Shown here one piece after another: positions 11,808 through 20,430 of a DNA stretch of 64,000 nt (positions are counted from its first letter, which is position 1; each line of letters begins with the position of its first letter). Made by a program: the position numbers and the translations under genes. The stretch is from Rubrivivax sp. (GTDB taxonomy: Bacteria > Pseudomonadota > Gammaproteobacteria > Burkholderiales > Burkholderiaceae_C), in the NCBI GenBank assembly GCA_018780805.1, contig JADMJD010000026.1:24755-88754 (forward strand). The letters are read 5' to 3'. Under the pieces are notes generated by a model. That model made no database searches. It was not told the origin of the DNA and worked only from the letters and a program-made list of their open reading frames with translations.

Positions 11808-11821
11808 TGGCGGAGTCGAAG
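11808..11821 (+). repeat. Distal att site, copy of tRNA-Ser 3' end
   Basis: TGGCGGAGTCGAAG identical to 20338-20351. Confidence 0.8.
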
Positions 11822-11867
11822 TCTGTCAAGACCCGCATGGATGCTCGCTCTCCGGGCCGTGGCGTCT

Positions 11868-11888
11868 TCTACCCACGCGCCACCCACA
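11868..11888 (+). repeat. Candidate integrase arm-type site (distal end)
   Basis: TCTACCCACGCGCCACCCACA, 19/21 identical and same orientation as 20168-20188. Confidence 0.45.
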
Positions 11889-11896
11889 CGGAAAGA

Positions 11897-12241
11897 TCAG
11901 GCGTCGGACGCTGCCGGCGCGGCCCCATCATCCGGCCCCGCGTAGGTCCGATTCGAATCCTCCGGTCGCATCCGAACCGAACCGCCCCAGGCCGTAAGCA
12001 CACTGGCCAGCTCGACGGGGGCGGGGGAGTCTTGTGCGGGCATGGCCAGCGCCAACACGGCGGGCCGCTTGGCGGTGTCACCGAGGCGCAGCAACTCGCC
12101 ACGACTGAGCATGCGGCTCGCGGTCATGCGGGCCAGCGCGTAGCCTACGCGGGCCCGCCTGGCCAGTTCCTTGACCGTGCAAGGGCCGTCTGCAGCCGCA
12201 GCTCGCAGTGCCAGAGTGATTTCGCCACAAGGTCGTGCCAC
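11897..12241 (-). CDS. Winged-HTH-like hypothetical protein of the island
   Basis: ITLALRAAAADGPCTVKELARRARVGYALARMTASRMLSRGELLRLGDTAKRP resembles a wHTH. Confidence 0.55.
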   Translation of the reverse strand: MARPCGEITLALRAAAADGPCTVKELARRARVGYALARMTASRMLSRGELLRLGDTAKRPAVLALAMPAQDSPAPVELASVLTAWGGSVRMRPEDSNRTYAGPDDGAAPAASDA

Positions 12242-12429
12242 AGGGCCAGTTTACGGCTGGCACGACAGGCAGAGAGTGGTGTGGGTGAGGCAGTACGCAC
12301 AGCCCCTTCGTAGCTGCACCCGATGCCCCTCGCCGCGCATCTTGCGTGGCCGGTGCCCGTCATGGGTTGGAAGCGCTCGCGCCAGGCTATGGCGGGCTGT
12401 CTCGCCTAGCGCGGTCCCGTGACATGGAC

Positions 12430-12894
12430 TCAGCTGAAGTACAGCTCCAAGCGGGCCGCTGCGTCGCTCAGCACGGCAAAGCAGCCTACTTCGATCAGTC
12501 GGCCCGGGATACCGAGGTCGGACCGGCCAACGGACAACTCGAATTCTTCGACTGCAACGGTGCCGCTCGCCGCCGTGTTGTCGTAGATCCTCAAAGTGCC
12601 GGCAGCCGTACCGCAGAAGATGGATTCGAGGCGGCGGCCGACCGCCCCACCCACCAAGCCCGAAGACGACACAAGCAATTTCAAGCCCGGCGCCATCAAC
12701 TGCTGAATCTTTCCGTCCTGCCGACGCACTTCACCGCGATTCAGCGCCAGCACCTGTGTATAGCTCAGGACCGGCACTTCGCTGTACATGGCGCGCGCCT
12801 GGCCTGAGCAAATGAGCCGGAGTTCTTCATCCGGCAGGAAGTGGCTGTAGCAGCCTGGCGCCAGGCCCTCGTGAGGGTAGAGCAGCTGGATCAT
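12430..12894 (-). CDS. Hypothetical protein, possible structural/decoration-like beta protein
   Basis: Immediately downstream of the capsid gene on the same strand; GTLRIYDNTAASGTVAVEEFE...LSDAAARLELYFS. Confidence 0.55.
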   Translation of the reverse strand: MIQLLYPHEGLAPGCYSHFLPDEELRLICSGQARAMYSEVPVLSYTQVLALNRGEVRRQDGKIQQLMAPGLKLLVSSSGLVGGAVGRRLESIFCGTAAGTLRIYDNTAASGTVAVEEFELSVGRSDLGIPGRLIEVGCFAVLSDAAARLELYFS

Positions 12895-12900
12895 GGCGGT

Positions 12901-14181
12901 TCACCGCAGCCCGGTGACGACGGCAAAGGCCGACGGATACCACACGCACACATCGGCACGAAGGTGGCCAATGAAACCGATTTGGCCGGTCTCGGCATAC
13001 AGCTCGTCCAGCTTCTGCAGGCTCAGGGTCTCACGGATCATCAGAGACATCTTCGTGAAGTCACCGACGTACAACTCCGAACAGTCATTGGACGTGCCTA
13101 CAGTCAAGCTGATGGGCACCTGCGAAGAGTGAACCATCTGCAAGGCCTCCAAGGCCTTGGGCATTTGCTTGGGCTGGCCGGCGGTATCTGTCGCGGACAT
13201 CAGGCGGACCCAGGAGCGCGGCGCCATCACCGCTGCCGTGGGCATGGGGGCATTGGCCTGCAGGATGTCGTCGAAGACCGACAAGATCGTGTCGTAGCCA
13301 GGACCAGCAGAGCCGTTCGGACCGCTGCCGATTGTGTAGACGCCTGCAGTGTTGAGCAGGCCGCGCGGCTCGGGCAATGTGCCACTGCCGCGAAGGCCCG
13401 TGCGGTCCAGTTCTTTAGCCAGTGCCTGGGCAATCACCAGCTCTAGCGCCGGCAGCATGTTCGGCGCATCGGCCAGCAGCTCACGCGACACCTTGAATCG
13501 GAAGCTCAGGCTCTGCGGCGTAGCAACCACGGAACGGAACGTCGGATCGCTCTCGGCAATTGCGCCCGCCTCCTGACGCCAGGCCGCCGTGGGGATCGCG
13601 TTGACAATCGCGGTCGTGATGCTCTTGGCATCGCCCACCGGATCGACAGACGCACCGGCCTGCAGGAGCGCCGAATTGGGGACCAGCGCGGCCATGATGT
13701 CGCCGAAGGTGGCACGGGGCACCGCGTGCCCACCGGCCGTGTCGGTGCCGACGCTCAAGGCCTTGGTCGCACGCTCAGTGGTCTTCATGCCAGCAATGCC
13801 CCGCAGCAGCTCATCGACGCCAATGCGGGCTTCCTCGCCCTTGCGGTAGTACGCCTTGAAGTCGGCGGCCGAACGCAGTTGAAGCACGGGCCCGTCTTGA
13901 TCGGCGGGCTTGGTGTGCATGGGAACAACCGGACCCGCGCTGGCCTTCTGTTCCAGCGTCAGCACTCGGTCGGCCAGCTCCGGCAGCTGGTGTAGCTTGT
14001 CCTCGATCTTGTCCAGGCCCTTCATCACCGTAGCCCAGTCCACGGCGCCAGCGCTGGCCATCATCAAGGGCACGGAAGGGTCCAGGCCAGCGGACAGCCA
14101 CACTGCGGACAAGAGTGCGGCGGTCAGGATCAACAGGCACACGCGGGTGTGCGTCAGATGTTGTTTCATACGGTCTTTCAT
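12901..14181 (-). CDS. HK97-type phage major capsid protein with N-terminal hydrophobic segment
   Basis: Delta-domain-like coiled coil, ATFGDIMAALVPNSALLQAGASV, FRFKVSRELLADAPNMLPALELVIAQALAKELDRTGLRGSGTLPEPRGLLNTAGV; N-terminus MKDRMKQHLTHTRVCLLILTAALLSAVWLSAG. Confidence 0.8.
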   Translation of the reverse strand: MKDRMKQHLTHTRVCLLILTAALLSAVWLSAGLDPSVPLMMASAGAVDWATVMKGLDKIEDKLHQLPELADRVLTLEQKASAGPVVPMHTKPADQDGPVLQLRSAADFKAYYRKGEEARIGVDELLRGIAGMKTTERATKALSVGTDTAGGHAVPRATFGDIMAALVPNSALLQAGASVDPVGDAKSITTAIVNAIPTAAWRQEAGAIAESDPTFRSVVATPQSLSFRFKVSRELLADAPNMLPALELVIAQALAKELDRTGLRGSGTLPEPRGLLNTAGVYTIGSGPNGSAGPGYDTILSVFDDILQANAPMPTAAVMAPRSWVRLMSATDTAGQPKQMPKALEALQMVHSSQVPISLTVGTSNDCSELYVGDFTKMSLMIRETLSLQKLDELYAETGQIGFIGHLRADVCVWYPSAFAVVTGLR

Positions 14182-14507
14182 GTTGAGTGGTTGATGCTGC
14201 CCACGGGCAGCGCTTGACCGTCTCCGCGGTTGCAGTCGCTGCCAGCATCCCGCCGGCCGCCGTCGCATCCCCGCATCTCGGGCTCGGGCTCAGGGCAGCT
14301 GCACGCGTTGACGGCTCCCCCGTCAATGGCACCCACTTGCCCCTCGCCCGCTGACCGAAGCGACTGCACCAGCAGCTCGAATCGATCGACTATTGCCAGC
14401 ATCCCACCGATGCGCGCAAGGACCAAATTTCGCTCACTTTCGAGCGTGGCCCGCCGCAGCTTGCGCGCCTGCACCTGGCGGCCGTCGCGGATGCGTCGGC
14501 GTATCAC
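14178..14507 (-). CDS. Hypothetical protein of the capsid module
   Basis: 109-aa ORF with 4-bp ATGA overlaps to both neighbours. Confidence 0.5.
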   Translation of the reverse strand: MIRRRIRDGRQVQARKLRRATLESERNLVLARIGGMLAIVDRFELLVQSLRSAGEGQVGAIDGGAVNACSCPEPEPEMRGCDGGRRDAGSDCNRGDGQALPVGSINHST

Positions 14508-14755
14508 GGGCCCGCCGGCCCTGGCCGGGGCTGCAACGTGGAGATGATGGACCGCGCGCCCTCACGCTCGACCAGCACGAGGCGCACGGCCTCGAACTCC
14601 GGGATGGGACCGAATTCCAGGACCAGGCGCGCACCACGGCGCAACGCATAGTCAACGCTGGCCATCTGTGCCGGCTCCAGGCTGGTGGCCATGATCGTGC
14701 CGCAGCGCAAGGCGGATTCGGCCAGGTTGCGGAAGCAGCTTTCCAATTCACTCAT
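14504..14755 (-). CDS. Small hypothetical protein of the capsid module
   Basis: MSELESCFRNLAESALRCGTIM..., 83 aa; ATGA overlap with next gene. Confidence 0.5.
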   Translation of the reverse strand: MSELESCFRNLAESALRCGTIMATSLEPAQMASVDYALRRGARLVLEFGPIPEFEAVRLVLVEREGARSIISTLQPRPGPAGP

Positions 14756-14891
14756 TGCATGTACCTCTCGGTGTTGTTCCTGCAGACAGGCAGGCGTCTG
14801 CACACGTCCGTGTCGCGGCCTCGACTGAGAGGCCGCGACGGCTCGTCGTCGTCGGCATCGCCGCCAGCGCCCCTACGCGCCGACGCCCCCG

Positions 14892-14990
14892 CATCGTTTG
14901 CATTGATTCAAGGGACCACTCCCCCTCATGCATGCGCAGGCGCGCGCCATGCGCATACGCATGAGGGGGGAGTGGTCCCGTGAAACGATG
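14892..14990. repeat. Long quasi-palindrome A
   Basis: GGGACCACTCCCCCTCATGC (14912-14931) pairs with GCATGAGGGGGGAGTGGTCCC (14959-14979); outer CATCGTTT / AAACGATG. Confidence 0.85.
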
Positions 14991-15148
14991 AAATGCATGT
15001 GGAGTCAGGCCAGCCCCGGCCGACCTCAACCCCAGGGGGGGTAGTTCTTTCGCCTCGCAAAAGAAAGCCTGGCGTCCGGTTTCCCTAGAACAGACCCCAG
15101 ACTTTTCACCCCCCCTCACACGCCCACGTACCGCTCGCAAGCGCCCCA

Positions 15149-15250
15149 CATCGTTCTCATCGATTCGCGCCACCACTCCCCCCTCATGCATGCGCGTGTG
15201 CGCGTGACGCGCGCACGCGCATGAGGGGGAGTGGTCCCTTGAAAGAACGA
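15149..15250. repeat. Long quasi-palindrome B
   Basis: CCACTCCCCCCTCATGC / GCATGAGGGGGAGTGG with GC-rich centre; shares an exact inverted 25-mer with palindrome A. Confidence 0.85.
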
Positions 15251-15262
15251 AAACCATGCGAG

Positions 15263-16654
15263 TCACGGCAGGTCCCGATGCACCAGGCGCAACCCGGCGA
15301 CGACGTTCTTGGTACCGATCCGCTTGATGACGACACCACGGGCGGCGCCCGTCGCATCGAGCAACTCAAGGAAGTGGTTTCGGCCGAACGGGTTGCGGAA
15401 GCCGCAGGCCGACGACCAGCGGCGGTAGCTCTCGTACACCGTGGGTGTGGTGTGCTCTGCTGCAGTGGGATCGATCTCGACCCACTCCGCATCGGTCAGG
15501 AACTGCTGCAGGGGATTGGCGGCCAGGCGCCATCTATCGAGCACGGCCGCGTGTGCCGCAGTGGTGGGCAGCGCACCAGCCTGAGCAACGCGCTCAGCAC
15601 CCAGAAACGCGCTGGCCAACACGGCCGGCATCTCCCGCGCCATGATCTTCTCGAACAGCCCGGGGTCCACCCGATCAGCCGGCACGGTGTTGGCAAACCT
15701 CAGCACGCGCCAGCGCCGATAGAAGGCCTCGCTCCGATCTGTTGTGGGTGGCAGCACGTTCGATGCGAACCAGTGCGCGGCGTGGCATCTGAAGCTGAAG
15801 GGCCGGTGTGTCGGGTGCCGGCCTGCCACGAGGTTCTGCCCGGTCACGTTCTTGAACGGCGCGGCCGGGATCGGCGCATCGTCGGACAGCTCGCCCACGA
15901 CGTTGATGCGCTTTCCACCCAGCGCGGCTACGTGGTACTCATGACCCCAGCTGGCAGGAGACACGGCACTTACAGCCTCAGGCGGGAAGGTGTGTTCCAG
16001 CACGCGCTGCAACAGACTCTTGCCACTGCGCTCTCTGCCAAGCATCAGCAGCACCGTCTGTAGCCGGGGCATCAGACCGAACAGTGACGCCCCAACGGCC
16101 TGCCACCACAGGTCTGTCTGCCCTGCCGGATCGTCGCCCTCGAACGCCTGCGACAACACGCCGTCCAGCAATGTGGCCTCGGCCTCGAAGTCCGGTGCGA
16201 ACGGGAGTGCAAACGTCTGCCGATAGTCGAGCGCCAACGGGACAACCTCGACATGCCCGGCAGCGGTCAGCCGATGGAACCCACCAGGCGAGACAACGCC
16301 CAACGGCGCATCATCAAAGAACCCCTCGACTTCACTCAGCGCGGCCAGGTGCTCGACTATTTGCTTGAAGTCCGAATGCTTCTTGCACAGCTTTTTGCCG
16401 CCGTGCAATTCAGCCACCAGGACCTGCATGCGCTCATGGCTCATCTGTCGCCATAGGCCGTCCCCACCAGGCGCGAAGAAGGCGCCATTCGCGTAGACAG
16501 GCTCATGGATGCCTTCAGCCAGGTAGGCACGCACCGCAAGGGCAATGGTGTGGTGCGTTGCGCTGTCCCCGTCCGCCTTCGTCTCGGCATCGGCCTGGCG
16601 CTGCCGCTGGCGGGCTACCGCCAGGTCGGCCACCTTGTCAGTGTCAGCGGGCAA
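15263..16654 (-). CDS. P4/D5-type phage or plasmid primase-helicase
   Basis: LLMLGRERSGKSLLQRVLEHTF Walker A, LGGKRINVVGELSDDAPI, FKNVTGQNLVAGRHPTHRPFSFRCHAAHWFASNVLPPTTDRSEAFYRRWRVLRFANTVP. Confidence 0.88.
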   Translation of the reverse strand: MPADTDKVADLAVARQRQRQADAETKADGDSATHHTIALAVRAYLAEGIHEPVYANGAFFAPGGDGLWRQMSHERMQVLVAELHGGKKLCKKHSDFKQIVEHLAALSEVEGFFDDAPLGVVSPGGFHRLTAAGHVEVVPLALDYRQTFALPFAPDFEAEATLLDGVLSQAFEGDDPAGQTDLWWQAVGASLFGLMPRLQTVLLMLGRERSGKSLLQRVLEHTFPPEAVSAVSPASWGHEYHVAALGGKRINVVGELSDDAPIPAAPFKNVTGQNLVAGRHPTHRPFSFRCHAAHWFASNVLPPTTDRSEAFYRRWRVLRFANTVPADRVDPGLFEKIMAREMPAVLASAFLGAERVAQAGALPTTAAHAAVLDRWRLAANPLQQFLTDAEWVEIDPTAAEHTTPTVYESYRRWSSACGFRNPFGRNHFLELLDATGAARGVVIKRIGTKNVVAGLRLVHRDLP

Positions 16655-17072
16655 GGCGCAGCTCCTCCATCAACGCGACGCAGCGGGCCTTTGCCAGCCC
16701 TGCGCGGCGCCGGTCGGCATCGGTGGGGGGCTTGCCTGCCTCCAGGTCCGTCAAGAGCACCCAGGCCACGCCCAGCTCGGCCTGCAGGGCTTCGATGACC
16801 TCGCGCGCAGTGAACGGCTTACGCTCAGCCGGCCGGCCTTGCCCGGGGCCCTGGCCTGGCGGGAACAGGTCTTCCATCGTCAAGCCCAGCGCGCGCACGA
16901 TTTCCTCAACCTCGCACTGTGCAAAGCAGTGGAGCAGCACCACCCCGTTGTCCAGCTCGCGCACACTCAAAGATGCGCGCCGGTCACGGTGCGCTGGGCA
17001 CTTGCACATCCACCGGCCGGGGCCCCTGACGCGCGGTTTCTCCAGTCGCGCAAACACGGCTTCGATGGTCAT
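16644..17072 (-). CDS. CHC2-type zinc-finger primase domain protein
   Basis: CKCPAHRDRRASLSVRELDNGVVLLHCFAQCEVEEIVRALGLTMEDLFP. Confidence 0.75.
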   Translation of the reverse strand: MTIEAVFARLEKPRVRGPGRWMCKCPAHRDRRASLSVRELDNGVVLLHCFAQCEVEEIVRALGLTMEDLFPPGQGPGQGRPAERKPFTAREVIEALQAELGVAWVLLTDLEAGKPPTDADRRRAGLAKARCVALMEELRLAR

Positions 17073-17118
17073 GTGCAGACGCCCGCACAGCCACACGGCA
17101 CGATCAAAGACCGAAGGA

Positions 17119-17280
17119 TCACTTGACCCCCTTCGATGCTGTGCGCTGCGCGCTGGCCTGCAGGCGCTTCAACTGCCTGCGCTGCGCCCTGTTCTGCGGC
17201 TCGACCACGTAGGACAGCGGGCCAGGCCGACGCATCAACTCGACCAGCTCGACGCGGCGCGTTGAACGGCTGCGGCTCAT
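17119..17280 (-). CDS. Small hypothetical protein (53 aa; below ORF-track cutoff)
   Basis: Manual translation MSRSRSTRRVELVELMRRPGPLSYVVEPQNRAQRRQLKRLQASAQRTASKGVK; ATGA overlap with the AlpA-like gene. Confidence 0.45.
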   Translation of the reverse strand: MSRSRSTRRVELVELMRRPGPLSYVVEPQNRAQRRQLKRLQASAQRTASKGVK

Positions 17281-17609
17281 GCGCGGCCCCCTCCACGCAG
17301 CTCATTGATTCGCCGACGCAACTGCGTCGGCTCGGGGTTCGGCTGCGCCTGGCGCGGCATGTTCAACACTGCGGTTTCCAGCTCAGACCGAACCCATCGC
17401 AGGATGCGCGGACCACACACCACGGGGCGCGGCATCCAGGGCGCCAGGCGCAGCTTGTGGAAGGTCCGCTCGCTGACGCCGAACACCTCGCGCGCCGCTT
17501 GTTCTGCGGTCAGCAGGGCCGTCGGCTTGCCTCGGCTCTCGATGGCAGCCAGGCGGGCCGGGTTGACTGGGCCCGCGCCGTTGGTCTTCGATTCGTCGGA
17601 TAGGTGCAT
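17277..17609 (-). CDS. AlpA/excisionase-like HTH regulator
   Basis: ALLTAEQAAREVFGVSERTFHKLRLAPWMPRPVVCGPRILRWVRSEL. Confidence 0.7.
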   Translation of the reverse strand: MHLSDESKTNGAGPVNPARLAAIESRGKPTALLTAEQAAREVFGVSERTFHKLRLAPWMPRPVVCGPRILRWVRSELETAVLNMPRQAQPNPEPTQLRRRINELRGGGRA

Positions 17610-17718
17610 CTGGCTTCCTCAAAGCGGCATCTAGCCGCGTTGAGGCAACCTTAGGGGGCGCCCGGCCCTTCGTTTGTGCGGGAAATTCGGCGCGGCCCGC
17701 GCCGTCTGTGCGGGAAAT

Positions 17719-18249
17719 TCAGCGGCGGTTGCGGCGCGGCTTTGGCATCGCGCCGGCACCCTCACGGGCTTTGATCGCCGCAGCGTTGCACTCGTCGTTC
17801 GACTCGACCAGGCCGCCCCTTCCACTGCGTACATGAGACTTCAGCACAAACCCGGCGGCCAACGCGCCAGCCCGGCTGGCGAAGCGGGCTGGCGCCTGCA
17901 TCTCCCACCTCGAACACCAGGCGCCAAACTCAGCGCTGCTGCTGCGCGCCTTTTCTGCGCTCACGTACCACTGCCGCAGGGTTTCAGGGTCCGTCAGCCG
18001 CGCCAGCACGGTGCCCTGGCTGTCTGCGATGGTGATGCCTCGCTCGCGCGTCCATCGGCCATCAGGGGTGCGCAGCTGGTGGCGCTCAATGATGGCGCGG
18101 CAGGCCGACAGCACACCACTGGCGCCCCGGTAGGCGATCTCCTCCCGCACGACGCGCCAGGCGTGGAACATCAAGGCCGGCCGGCTGCGCGTTGTACCGC
18201 TGCCAGCCGGCCGGCCTCTCTTCTTGGGCGAGTCCTCAGACACGGCCAT
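17719..18249 (-). CDS. Hypothetical protein with AT-hook-like N-terminus
   Basis: KKRGRPAGSG; intact 176-aa ORF collinear with the island genes. Confidence 0.5.
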   Translation of the reverse strand: MAVSEDSPKKRGRPAGSGTTRSRPALMFHAWRVVREEIAYRGASGVLSACRAIIERHQLRTPDGRWTRERGITIADSQGTVLARLTDPETLRQWYVSAEKARSSSAEFGAWCSRWEMQAPARFASRAGALAAGFVLKSHVRSGRGGLVESNDECNAAAIKAREGAGAMPKPRRNRR

Positions 18250-18257
18250 GCCCTCTG

Positions 18258-18692
18258 TTATCCGTGTCGAAGACCACGAATCAATTTCTCCTCTTCTGCC
18301 GCACCGGCAACCTCCAACAGCCCCCGCGCGTGCTGCGCCATGTTCATCACAATGAACAGCATATCCGCCACCTCCCCGGGTGTGCCCAGCAGCCCTGACG
18401 GGTGCTCACCAAGTTTTGTGGCGTGGCTCGCCTCGTAGTTGAGCAGACACCCCAGCGTCTCGCACAGGTGGTCAATGCCGCCAAGGACTACTTCCGCCGA
18501 CTCGCGCTGCATGCTCAACGTATACAGGTCGTCATCGGACATGTTCGCCTTGCCTCGCTCAAACAGACCCGACATCAGATCCTGTGTCTTCGGTCCCAGG
18601 CTCCCGAACGCAGCCCCTGTGCAGACGCCTGCGTCGGCAGCGGGCACGGTACGCGACACAATAGTTTCAGCCTTCATCGTTGATCCAGTCAT
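18258..18692 (-). CDS. Hypothetical protein
   Basis: Intact 144-aa ORF collinear with the island genes; alternative internal start MKAET. Confidence 0.5.
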   Translation of the reverse strand: MTGSTMKAETIVSRTVPAADAGVCTGAAFGSLGPKTQDLMSGLFERGKANMSDDDLYTLSMQRESAEVVLGGIDHLCETLGCLLNYEASHATKLGEHPSGLLGTPGEVADMLFIVMNMAQHARGLLEVAGAAEEEKLIRGLRHG

Positions 18693-18794
18693 CGTTGATG
18701 GTCAGGGCCGGTGCATTGCTTCATCAATGCACCGGCCCGCCTTGCCGCTGGAACGCAGCGGCCACGCTTGCCGGCGACCGGCCGGCACGGTTCA

Positions 18795-20126
18795 TCAGGC
18801 CGCCACCAGCGCAAGCGCAGGCCTGGCCAGGTAGTCGGACCAGGCGGACAGCACGGCCCGCCGCTCAGCGTTGAACTGCGCACGCATGTAGGCCTTGCGC
18901 ACGCGGTCGCCTTCTTGGTGCGCAAGACACGCCTCGATCACATCGGGCCTGGCGGCGCCGGTTTCATTGGCCCAGGTGCTGAAGGTCGCGCGACACAGGC
19001 CGTGCACGGTCGTGCGGCCCTTCAGGCCCATGCGGTCGCGCAGGGTCAACATGGCCATGTTGCTCATGGTGGCGTCAGCCTTCCAGGCACTCGGGAAGAC
19101 CCACCGCGCGTGCTGCCCGGCCTGGCCCTTCACAACCTCCAGCGCCCTGGCCGACAGGTAGACCAGGTGATCTTCGCCGGCCTTCATCTTTGCCCCTGGC
19201 ACCAGCCACGTGCCGGCGGTCAGGTCGAACTCTGACCACTCAGCGGTCAGTGCTTCGCTGGTGCGGGCCACGGTCAGGATGGCGAACTCGAAACACCGTG
19301 CGGCCGTGCCTGGCCAGGAACGCAACCGCAGCACCACAGCAGGCGCCTCGGTGTAGGCCGACGCTGCCAGGCTCCCGGCCTCTTTGGCCGGGGCCTCCTC
19401 GCGCATCTTGCGGCGGATCGCGGCGGCCGGGTTGCTGGTGGCATGCCCGTGGAACATCGCATCTTCAAAAATGGAGTCCAAGCGCTGGCGAATGCGCCGC
19501 AGCGTTTCCGGCACGCGGTCGCCCTTCAGGTTGCGCGCCCGCTCATGCGGACGCACCTTGAGCAACGCGGACAGCAGGGCGGGCGGCGTGATGCTGTCCA
19601 CAGGCGCATGCCAGACCTCGGGGGCAATGTGGTTCTCCAAGCTGGCGATCCATTGCGCGGCGTGCTTGGTCGTGCGGGTGGGCTCGATGACGCGCCCGTG
19701 GTAGTCCCTGGCTACCCTGGCAAGGGTGCGGGCCTGTTCGGCCTGCAGGCGGGCCACCAGTTGCGTTTGCTGGGCATCGGCCAGGCGCTCAGCGTCGCGC
19801 CGCTTGTCGCGCTCCGCCAGCGGGTCGAGGCCGCGCCTGACCAGCTCGCGGTGCTGCGCCGCCAGGTCGCGCGCCAGGCGCATGCCCTCGCCTGCAGTCT
19901 TGATCGAATCGGCCAGCGCCGGTCCCAGGCCCATTTCTCGCCGGCGGCCGGTGGTGGCCACCGTGTACCGATAGACCCAGGACCGGGAGACCCGGCCGGT
20001 GTCGGCATCCTTGCGCACCGCCAGCAGCAGCCCGCCACCGTCTACGTGGTTGCCGGGCGGTGCCGCCATCACCTCGCGCGCCGTCAACAGGTGCAGCGCC
20101 CCGGCTGCTGCCTTCTTGCCCATCAT
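18795..20126 (-). CDS. Tyrosine-type site-specific integrase (P4/DUF4102 type)
   Basis: LTVARTSEALTAEWSEFDL, TVHGLCRATFSTWANE, R-H-R-Y layout; adjacent to tRNA att site. Confidence 0.92.
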   Translation of the reverse strand: MMGKKAAAGALHLLTAREVMAAPPGNHVDGGGLLLAVRKDADTGRVSRSWVYRYTVATTGRRREMGLGPALADSIKTAGEGMRLARDLAAQHRELVRRGLDPLAERDKRRDAERLADAQQTQLVARLQAEQARTLARVARDYHGRVIEPTRTTKHAAQWIASLENHIAPEVWHAPVDSITPPALLSALLKVRPHERARNLKGDRVPETLRRIRQRLDSIFEDAMFHGHATSNPAAAIRRKMREEAPAKEAGSLAASAYTEAPAVVLRLRSWPGTAARCFEFAILTVARTSEALTAEWSEFDLTAGTWLVPGAKMKAGEDHLVYLSARALEVVKGQAGQHARWVFPSAWKADATMSNMAMLTLRDRMGLKGRTTVHGLCRATFSTWANETGAARPDVIEACLAHQEGDRVRKAYMRAQFNAERRAVLSAWSDYLARPALALVAA

Positions 20127-20167
20127 CGCCCCCCCTGCGCGTGGGGGGAGCCGGCTGGCGCCGAACC

Positions 20168-20188
20168 TCTACCCACGCTCTACCCACA
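20168..20188 (+). repeat. Candidate integrase arm-type site (tRNA-proximal end)
   Basis: TCTACCCACGCTCTACCCACA; internal tandem TCTACCCAC; matches 11868-11888. Confidence 0.45.
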
Positions 20189-20289
20189 GAAACCGGCGCA
20201 GAGTGCGTGCACTCAAACGCGGACCAGTTGCACCGTAGGCAGTATGTGAGGAGGGAAAACAGCCGTCAAATCAACGACTTACAAAGAAA

Positions 20290-20333
20290 AATCCCTCACT
20301 GACATGCACCTTGATGCACCTCAGTGAGGGATT
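20290..20333 (-). terminator. Intrinsic terminator carried by the island just downstream of tRNA-Ser
   Basis: AATCCCTCACTGA / TCAGTGAGGGATT 13-bp perfect arms, followed on the minus strand by a TTTTTC run. Confidence 0.75.
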
Positions 20334-20337
20334 AGAC

Positions 20338-20430
20338 TGGCGGAGTCGAAGGGATTCGAACCCTTGATGCAGGTTTTGCCCACATACTCCCTTAGCAGGG
20401 GAGCACCTTCGGCCACTCGGTCACGACTCC
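20338..20430 (-). tRNA. tRNA-Ser (GCT anticodon)
   Basis: Reverse complement GGAGTCGTGACCGAGTGGCCGAAGGTGCTCCCCTGCTAAGGGAGTATGTGG...GGGTTCGAATCCCTTCGACTCCGCCA. Confidence 0.95.

Follow-up and report, generated by a model that had tools for sequence, protein, structure and literature searches.

The window, a 64,000-nucleotide stretch of a Rubrivivax sp. contig, contains an integrated element of 8.53 kb (positions 11808-20351) in a tRNA-Ser(gct) gene. The left attachment repeat, TGGCGGAGTCGAAG (11808..11821), duplicates the last 14 bp of tRNA-Ser, and its first base places the left boundary at 11808, a small correction to the earlier note on this DNA; the right repeat (20338..20351) lies inside the 3′ end of the tRNA gene itself (20338..20430, minus strand; ARAGORN and Rfam RF00005). 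In G056, which belongs to the same genus, the sequence is continuous across the junction, with 83% identity over 483 alignment columns, and the empty site adjoins the same tRNA and aspartokinase gene as in the window. The 14-bp repeats and this unbroken site together delimit the 8.53-kb element, which has the integrase, attachment repeats and empty site in a relative that define a tRNA-integrated satellite. Just outside its left end lies a HipA-family gene, YjjJ (NF007297; 9990-11627).

Inwards from the tRNA, and with every gene on the minus strand, the element encodes a tyrosine integrase (18795..20126; PF00589, PF22022 and PF13356; phrog_1), two proteins of unknown function—one of 144 amino acids (18258..18692) with coding-like codon use and no family match in Pfam, PHROGs or NCBIfam, the other of 176 amino acids (17719..18249)—an AlpA/excisionase-like DNA-binding protein (17277..17609; phrog_66, E = 5e-4) with a homologue in element L035, a primase zinc-ribbon protein (16644..17096; phrog_6088, E = 3e-13) that is 61% identical to its homologue in L044, and a P4-family primase C-terminal/helicase protein (15263..16654). 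The last scores 112.4 bits against TIGR01613 (cut-off 108.7) and is 69-71% identical to its counterparts in satellites L044 and L034. Just downstream of it, two large imperfect palindromes (14889-15002 and 15146-15260), a candidate replication origin, share the sequence GGGACCACTCCCCC, which also occurs just behind the helicase gene in L034 (position 7701) and L044 (position 12054). Two small genes precede the capsid gene: g99 (14504..14803), which is mainly satellite-borne, and g109 (14178..14507), which is 57-60% identical over about 50 residues to proteins of L059 and L046. An HMM of g99 matched eight elements that encode a major capsid protein (MCP) but no portal or terminase, gave weak matches in L050, which resembles a capsid-forming PICI (cfPICI), and in L170, and had no match in the complete prophages examined. 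Directly downstream of the capsid gene is a 154-residue ORFan (12430..12894) that matched nothing in phages or among 201 genomes from the family and whose single-sequence structure model reached a pLDDT of just 34; possibly it is a decoration protein, a guess from its position. A small probable regulator, g114 (11897..12241), closes the element and has homologues at the same end of L034, L036, L040, L046 and L059.

The capsid gene (12901..14181, minus strand) encodes a full HK97-fold MCP of 426 amino acids, in which a charged and hydrophobic start (residues 1-33) and a coil (49-81) precede the capsid body (about 95-426). The protein matches PF05065 (E = 1e-31, Pfam), the PHROGs major head protein family phrog_10 (E = 2e-37) and, over residues 55-423, TIGR01554 (E = 4e-39, NCBIfam). 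The AlphaFold2 model has a mean pLDDT of 85.9, with most of the body at about 90-97, and its top Foldseek matches among solved HK97-fold structures are the capsids of D3, a gene transfer agent and HK97; D3 aligns at E = 1e-15 and HK97 Head II at E = 3e-14, with a TM-score of 0.73 by target length, and encapsulins appear further down the list. Matches to PF05065/TIGR01554 above the curated cut-off, together with the fold, place the protein among HK97-fold phage MCPs, and the structure check thus upholds the HK97-type body proposed in the earlier note. The closest matches in phage records share only about 26-29% identity with it.

A charged start followed by a hydrophobic helix and then a coiled coil had been read from the letters of the sequence, and three lines of evidence agree with that description. 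The best 17-residue Kyte-Doolittle mean near the N terminus is 2.38, a value matched within the first 40 residues by 35 of 5,000 shuffles of the protein's own residues; by hydropathy, a charged n-region and a hydrophobic helix of 15-20 residues form a pattern of the membrane-anchor or signal type; and AlphaFold2 places helices at residues 2-31, 36-45 and 49-81 (the coil), followed by disorder at 82-92. The open reading frame continues upstream of the ATG as far as 14268. We favour 14181 because its ATG overlaps the TGA stop of g109 (ATGA). It is unlikely that the hydrophobic segment is an artefact of a wrong start and that translation truly begins at the internal MMASAGAVDW near 14063, even though no clear Shine-Dalgarno sequence precedes 14181 and the homologue in L059, which lacks the hydrophobic part, starts at the equivalent of that internal methionine behind an AGGAG. 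The homologues in satellites L046 (MKHTRTLAILAAAALASFAAFAGG...) and L040 (MKLTFPLVALAASLCALALMYFG...) open with a comparable hydrophobic segment directly 3′ of good Shine-Dalgarno sites, and the annotated starts of named phages likewise include the segment. Conservation of the segment among homologues, and of starts near MMASAGAVDW, is accordingly divided: L046 and L040 keep the segment and begin at it, whereas L059 and the rest of the window's MCP clade lack it, the latter having ordinary coils or a protease fusion instead.

Between the window and L046 or L059 the N-terminal module is 47-56% identical, whereas the capsid bodies are only about 25% identical, and g99 and g109 match these same two elements; a block comprising g99, g109 and the scaffold has therefore been exchanged between satellites, and the joint of the exchange lies near the disordered linker. 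In several MCPs with a hydrophobic start, another but weaker hydrophobic stretch follows some 15-25 residues further on, which would allow a hairpin that retains the capsid body in the cytoplasm. Weak N-terminal matches in G306, G330, G359, G460, G480 and G092:C6 proved to be unrelated proteins and were dropped.

The earlier note had offered a membrane-tethered shell among its readings, and the comparison with complete phages told against such a shell being peculiar to this element. Defining a hydrophobic start as a 17-residue mean of at least 1.5, we found one in about 7 of 30 sampled PF05065 loci of the host's bacterial family, the window included, and five of these loci, when examined, lay in complete terminase-portal-protease-MCP cassettes. 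Two more prophage regions, L173, whose MCP is that of sampled locus L182, and L174, have such a start, and in the complete prophages L206, L207, L208, L209, L210, L173 and L174 the signal-like or transmembrane MCP start comes directly after the maturation protease gene. Three named phages have it as well (Burkholderia phage Bcep176, Bradyrhizobium phage ppBeUSDA76-1 and Mesorhizobium phage vB_MseS-P1); no hydrophobic N terminus was seen in Azospirillum Cd, Caulobacter Kronos, ppBdUSDA122-1, D3, ST64B, phiL7, phiXacJX1, BUCT603 or VW-6S. The hydrophobic MCP N terminus is thus real, yet it is not a satellite invention, and we rejected the idea that it marks a satellite-specific membrane shell. 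Within a literature search of partial coverage we found no paper discussing hydrophobic N termini on MCPs, and the JBD30 and PBR31 papers contain nothing on membrane-linked capsids. An unrelated short MCP from IMG/VR (L129, 793-1797) also opens with a strongly hydrophobic helix.

No terminase, portal, protease or tail gene was recognized among the element's proteins with Pfam, PHROGs and NCBIfam, and local HMMs run over all of its open reading frames of at least 50 amino acids found no packaging genes, as had been claimed from the sequence alone. The same three databases yielded no Sid, Psu, Delta or Ash in the element, although very divergent versions could escape them. When we extended the Pfam scan to 112 proteins from 11 MCP-only elements (the window's and ten others), the only head or packaging families present were Phage_capsid (10), HK97-gp10 (2) and the Terminase_4 small subunit (1). 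The same tests recovered integrase, MCP, protease, portal and terminase from L045, L049 and L050, tRNA elements that come from the same bacterial family and measure 10.3-10.9 kb, indicating that the absence elsewhere is genuine rather than a matter of poor sensitivity. The host genome showed no portal by PF04860 and only a weak terminase fragment, and of 17 genomes or records from related hosts, 11 had no phrog_12 portal, so a helper is either absent from those assemblies or of another type.

Relatives of the window MCP were gathered from genomes and IMG/VR. The clade alignment A1 recovered them as a query; the window MCP as a single query against genome contigs gave no match, nor did searches of viral contigs with the L046 MCP, the L040 MCP or the N-terminal alignment. 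The resulting family comprises at least 12 tRNA-integrated elements of 7.8-10.5 kb, bounded by attachment repeats, that encode an MCP but no portal or large terminase: those of the window, L034, L035, L036, L040, L046, L059, L134, L136, L140, L141 and L048. Cultured carriers include Ramlibacter aurantiacus AW1 (L141), Polaromonas sp. AER18D-145 (L134) and Frateuria terrea CGMCC 1.7053 (L145). Gene order is kept, size is similar and the attachment repeats are intact in many species. Some copies are possibly broken, the MCP of L140 being called partially and L139 and L150 having no intact gene call. Charybdis elements, considered as relatives, are unrelated and lack an HK97 capsid protein.

A maximum-likelihood tree built from 57 MCP bodies places the window MCP in a 20-member clade with support of 100/100, whose hosts, where known, are all Pseudomonadota (Comamonadaceae, Rubrivivax, Frateuria, Lysobacterales and Nitrosospira). 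For twelve of the 20, the surrounding element or locus has no portal and terminase; the contigs of the other eight are too short for this to be judged, and a full head cassette was found beside none. Well-supported branches of the tree force at least seven changes, such that the state without portal and terminase arose several times. Within the clade, pairwise dN/dS values of about 0.10-0.39, with some dS near saturation, indicate that the MCP is maintained under purifying selection. With the element's boundaries, the empty site, the similar elements and a clade never seen beside a portal or terminase, the reading of the element as a minimal capsid-only satellite, one of those offered at the outset, is well supported.

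Known satellites and phages each share part of this organization. The element resembles cfPICIs in being small and tRNA-integrated and in having an integrase, an AlpA-like gene, a primase and its own MCP; but cfPICIs, which are defined by a full head and packaging set, carry MCP, protease, portal, connectors, TerS, TerL and HNH and lack only tails, whereas the window's element has the MCP alone (PMC10690885, PMC11389934). It has no portal, protease or large terminase of its own, and the cfPICI-like L045, L049 and L050 have the full set within the same bacterial family and at similar size, which bears out the contrast with cfPICIs drawn in the earlier note. Like P4-like satellites, it is integrated in a tRNA gene, has a P4-family primase-helicase (TIGR01613) and would rely on a helper; unlike it, P4 lacks an MCP and uses Sid to resize the shell of P2, and the window's element has an MCP and no recognized Sid, Psu or Delta. 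PICIs/SaPIs, PLE and PICMI are similar in size class and presumed helper dependence but encode size-determination proteins or no shell gene, rather than an MCP (PMC10803314, PMC10945586). The Streptomyces satellites MulchRoom and MiniFlayer also encode a shell, with the reverse of the window's arrangement: they add terminase, portal and scaffold and have no replication genes (PMC10690885). The MCP itself is of the HK97/D3 type, with the HK97 fold and an N-terminal coil (delta domain); the hydrophobic helix is absent from the HK97-group relatives D3, ST64B and phiL7, and Bcep176, ppBeUSDA76-1 and vB_MseS-P1 have one, as the window MCP does. We found no paper describing satellites that carry an MCP alone, in a literature search of partial coverage.

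We therefore consider it probable that the element is an integrated satellite that supplies its own HK97-fold MCP, with a helper phage furnishing the portal, maturation protease, terminase and tail. Both helper dependence and particle formation are here read from the genes. In D3, the N-terminal scaffold domain and the capsid domain suffice for correctly sized shells and a protease removes the scaffold; in HK97, likewise, an N-terminal scaffold guides assembly and is then cleaved off by the phage protease (PMC12749128). On this model, the satellite MCP would be expected to build a shell for itself, most likely a small one fitting the genome of about 8.5 kb. The hydrophobic helix and coiled coil would form a built-in scaffold (delta) domain, with the helix at its tip probably docking capsomers on the inner membrane or packing in the procapsid core, and the helper's protease would then cut off the whole N-terminal region, hydrophobic helix included. 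Besides the helper portals missing from the host genome and most related ones, three features count against this reading: the coil, at about 33 residues, is shorter than that of HK97 or D3; TerS is not recognizable in the element; and the signal-type charge pattern would send the capsid body to the periplasm unless a hairpin forms or the protein is not exported.

Satellites commonly act on the shells of their helpers: Sid of P4, CpmB of SaPI and TcaP of PLE redirect or disrupt them by other means. The satellite MCP could then be a size-redirecting or interfering subunit that co-assembles with the helper MCP into small or dead shells, an alternative that we regard as somewhat doubtful. That satellites often remodel helper shells (PMC10945586, PMC10690885), that the element has a single shell gene, and that N-terminal modules have been swapped between satellites (47-56% identity against about 25% in the body) would all suit such a subunit, but its body is modelled with confidence as an entire MCP, evolves under purifying selection and falls in a separate clade, and the close identity to a helper MCP that co-assembly leads one to expect is unseen, the best phage matches being at about 26-29%. 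Decay of a prophage or cfPICI, in which the other head genes were lost and the MCP was left by chance, would account for the repeated origin of the state without portal and terminase (at least seven forced changes on the MCP tree) and for the possibly broken copies (the partial MCP of L140, and L139 and L150 without an intact call). We think it quite unlikely given the constancy of gene order, of size (7.8-10.5 kb) and of intact attachment repeats across many species, the low dN/dS of the MCPs, the satellite gene g99 adjoining the MCP in eight elements, and a large MCP clade without any full-cassette member.

A hydrophobic N-terminal segment on a shell protein encoded alone, with a fold common to encapsulins, which stand lower in the Foldseek list, also brings to mind a membrane-anchored or encapsulin-like compartment with no role in DNA packaging. 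This is very unlikely: the best structure and family matches are phage capsids, the element's proteins gave no encapsulin family match and no recognized cargo enzyme in Pfam, PHROGs and NCBIfam, the gene sits in a mobile element with replication genes, and complete phages have the same kind of N terminus. Beyond the preferred reading of a satellite that combines its own MCP with helper-supplied packaging functions, we tentatively entertain a broader and possible proposition, namely that MCP-only satellites form a stable, widespread class and that some HK97-type scaffolds dock assembly at the inner membrane by a helix, to be freed by the protease.

Satellites known so far have either no capsid gene or the whole head and packaging set, and a clade of MCPs so far found only where other head genes are missing implies that a shell protein alone can be worth keeping. 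If the class is what it seems, MCP-only elements stand between P4/PICI, with no capsid gene, and cfPICIs, with a whole head, and they raise a testable question: whether a satellite can swap the shell alone around its helper's portal and motor. Triangulation numbers of about T = 2.3 to 3 have been predicted for tailed phages in about the 7.8-10.5 kb range, as yet unseen (PMC7762592). Hydrophobic N termini on ordinary phage MCPs would, for their part, offer an easy way to recognize from sequence that heads are assembled docked to the membrane in phages other than T4.

Other elements vary the arrangement. L044 likewise has an MCP without portal or large terminase, except that this MCP is joined to a protease-like portion, and prohead-protease-like N-terminal fusions occur on the element MCPs of L044, L067/L133 and L070. 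In a 45-kb viral contig (L069, 1-4536), a satellite integrase lies directly 3′ of an apparent prophage lysis cassette, in a record with no HK97-type portal. Single matches to F5/8 type C and collagen-repeat families occurred among the element proteins scanned, possibly in the long genes that follow the MCP in L141. This element, from Ramlibacter aurantiacus AW1 (L141, 3859-14357; 10.5 kb), occupies the same tRNA-Ser(gct)/aspartokinase site as that of the window and has an MCP without portal or terminase, and the same combination is present in a 9.8-kb element of Streptomyces anulatus (L149, 4297-14142) at a tRNA-Thr gene with a 46-bp attachment repeat.
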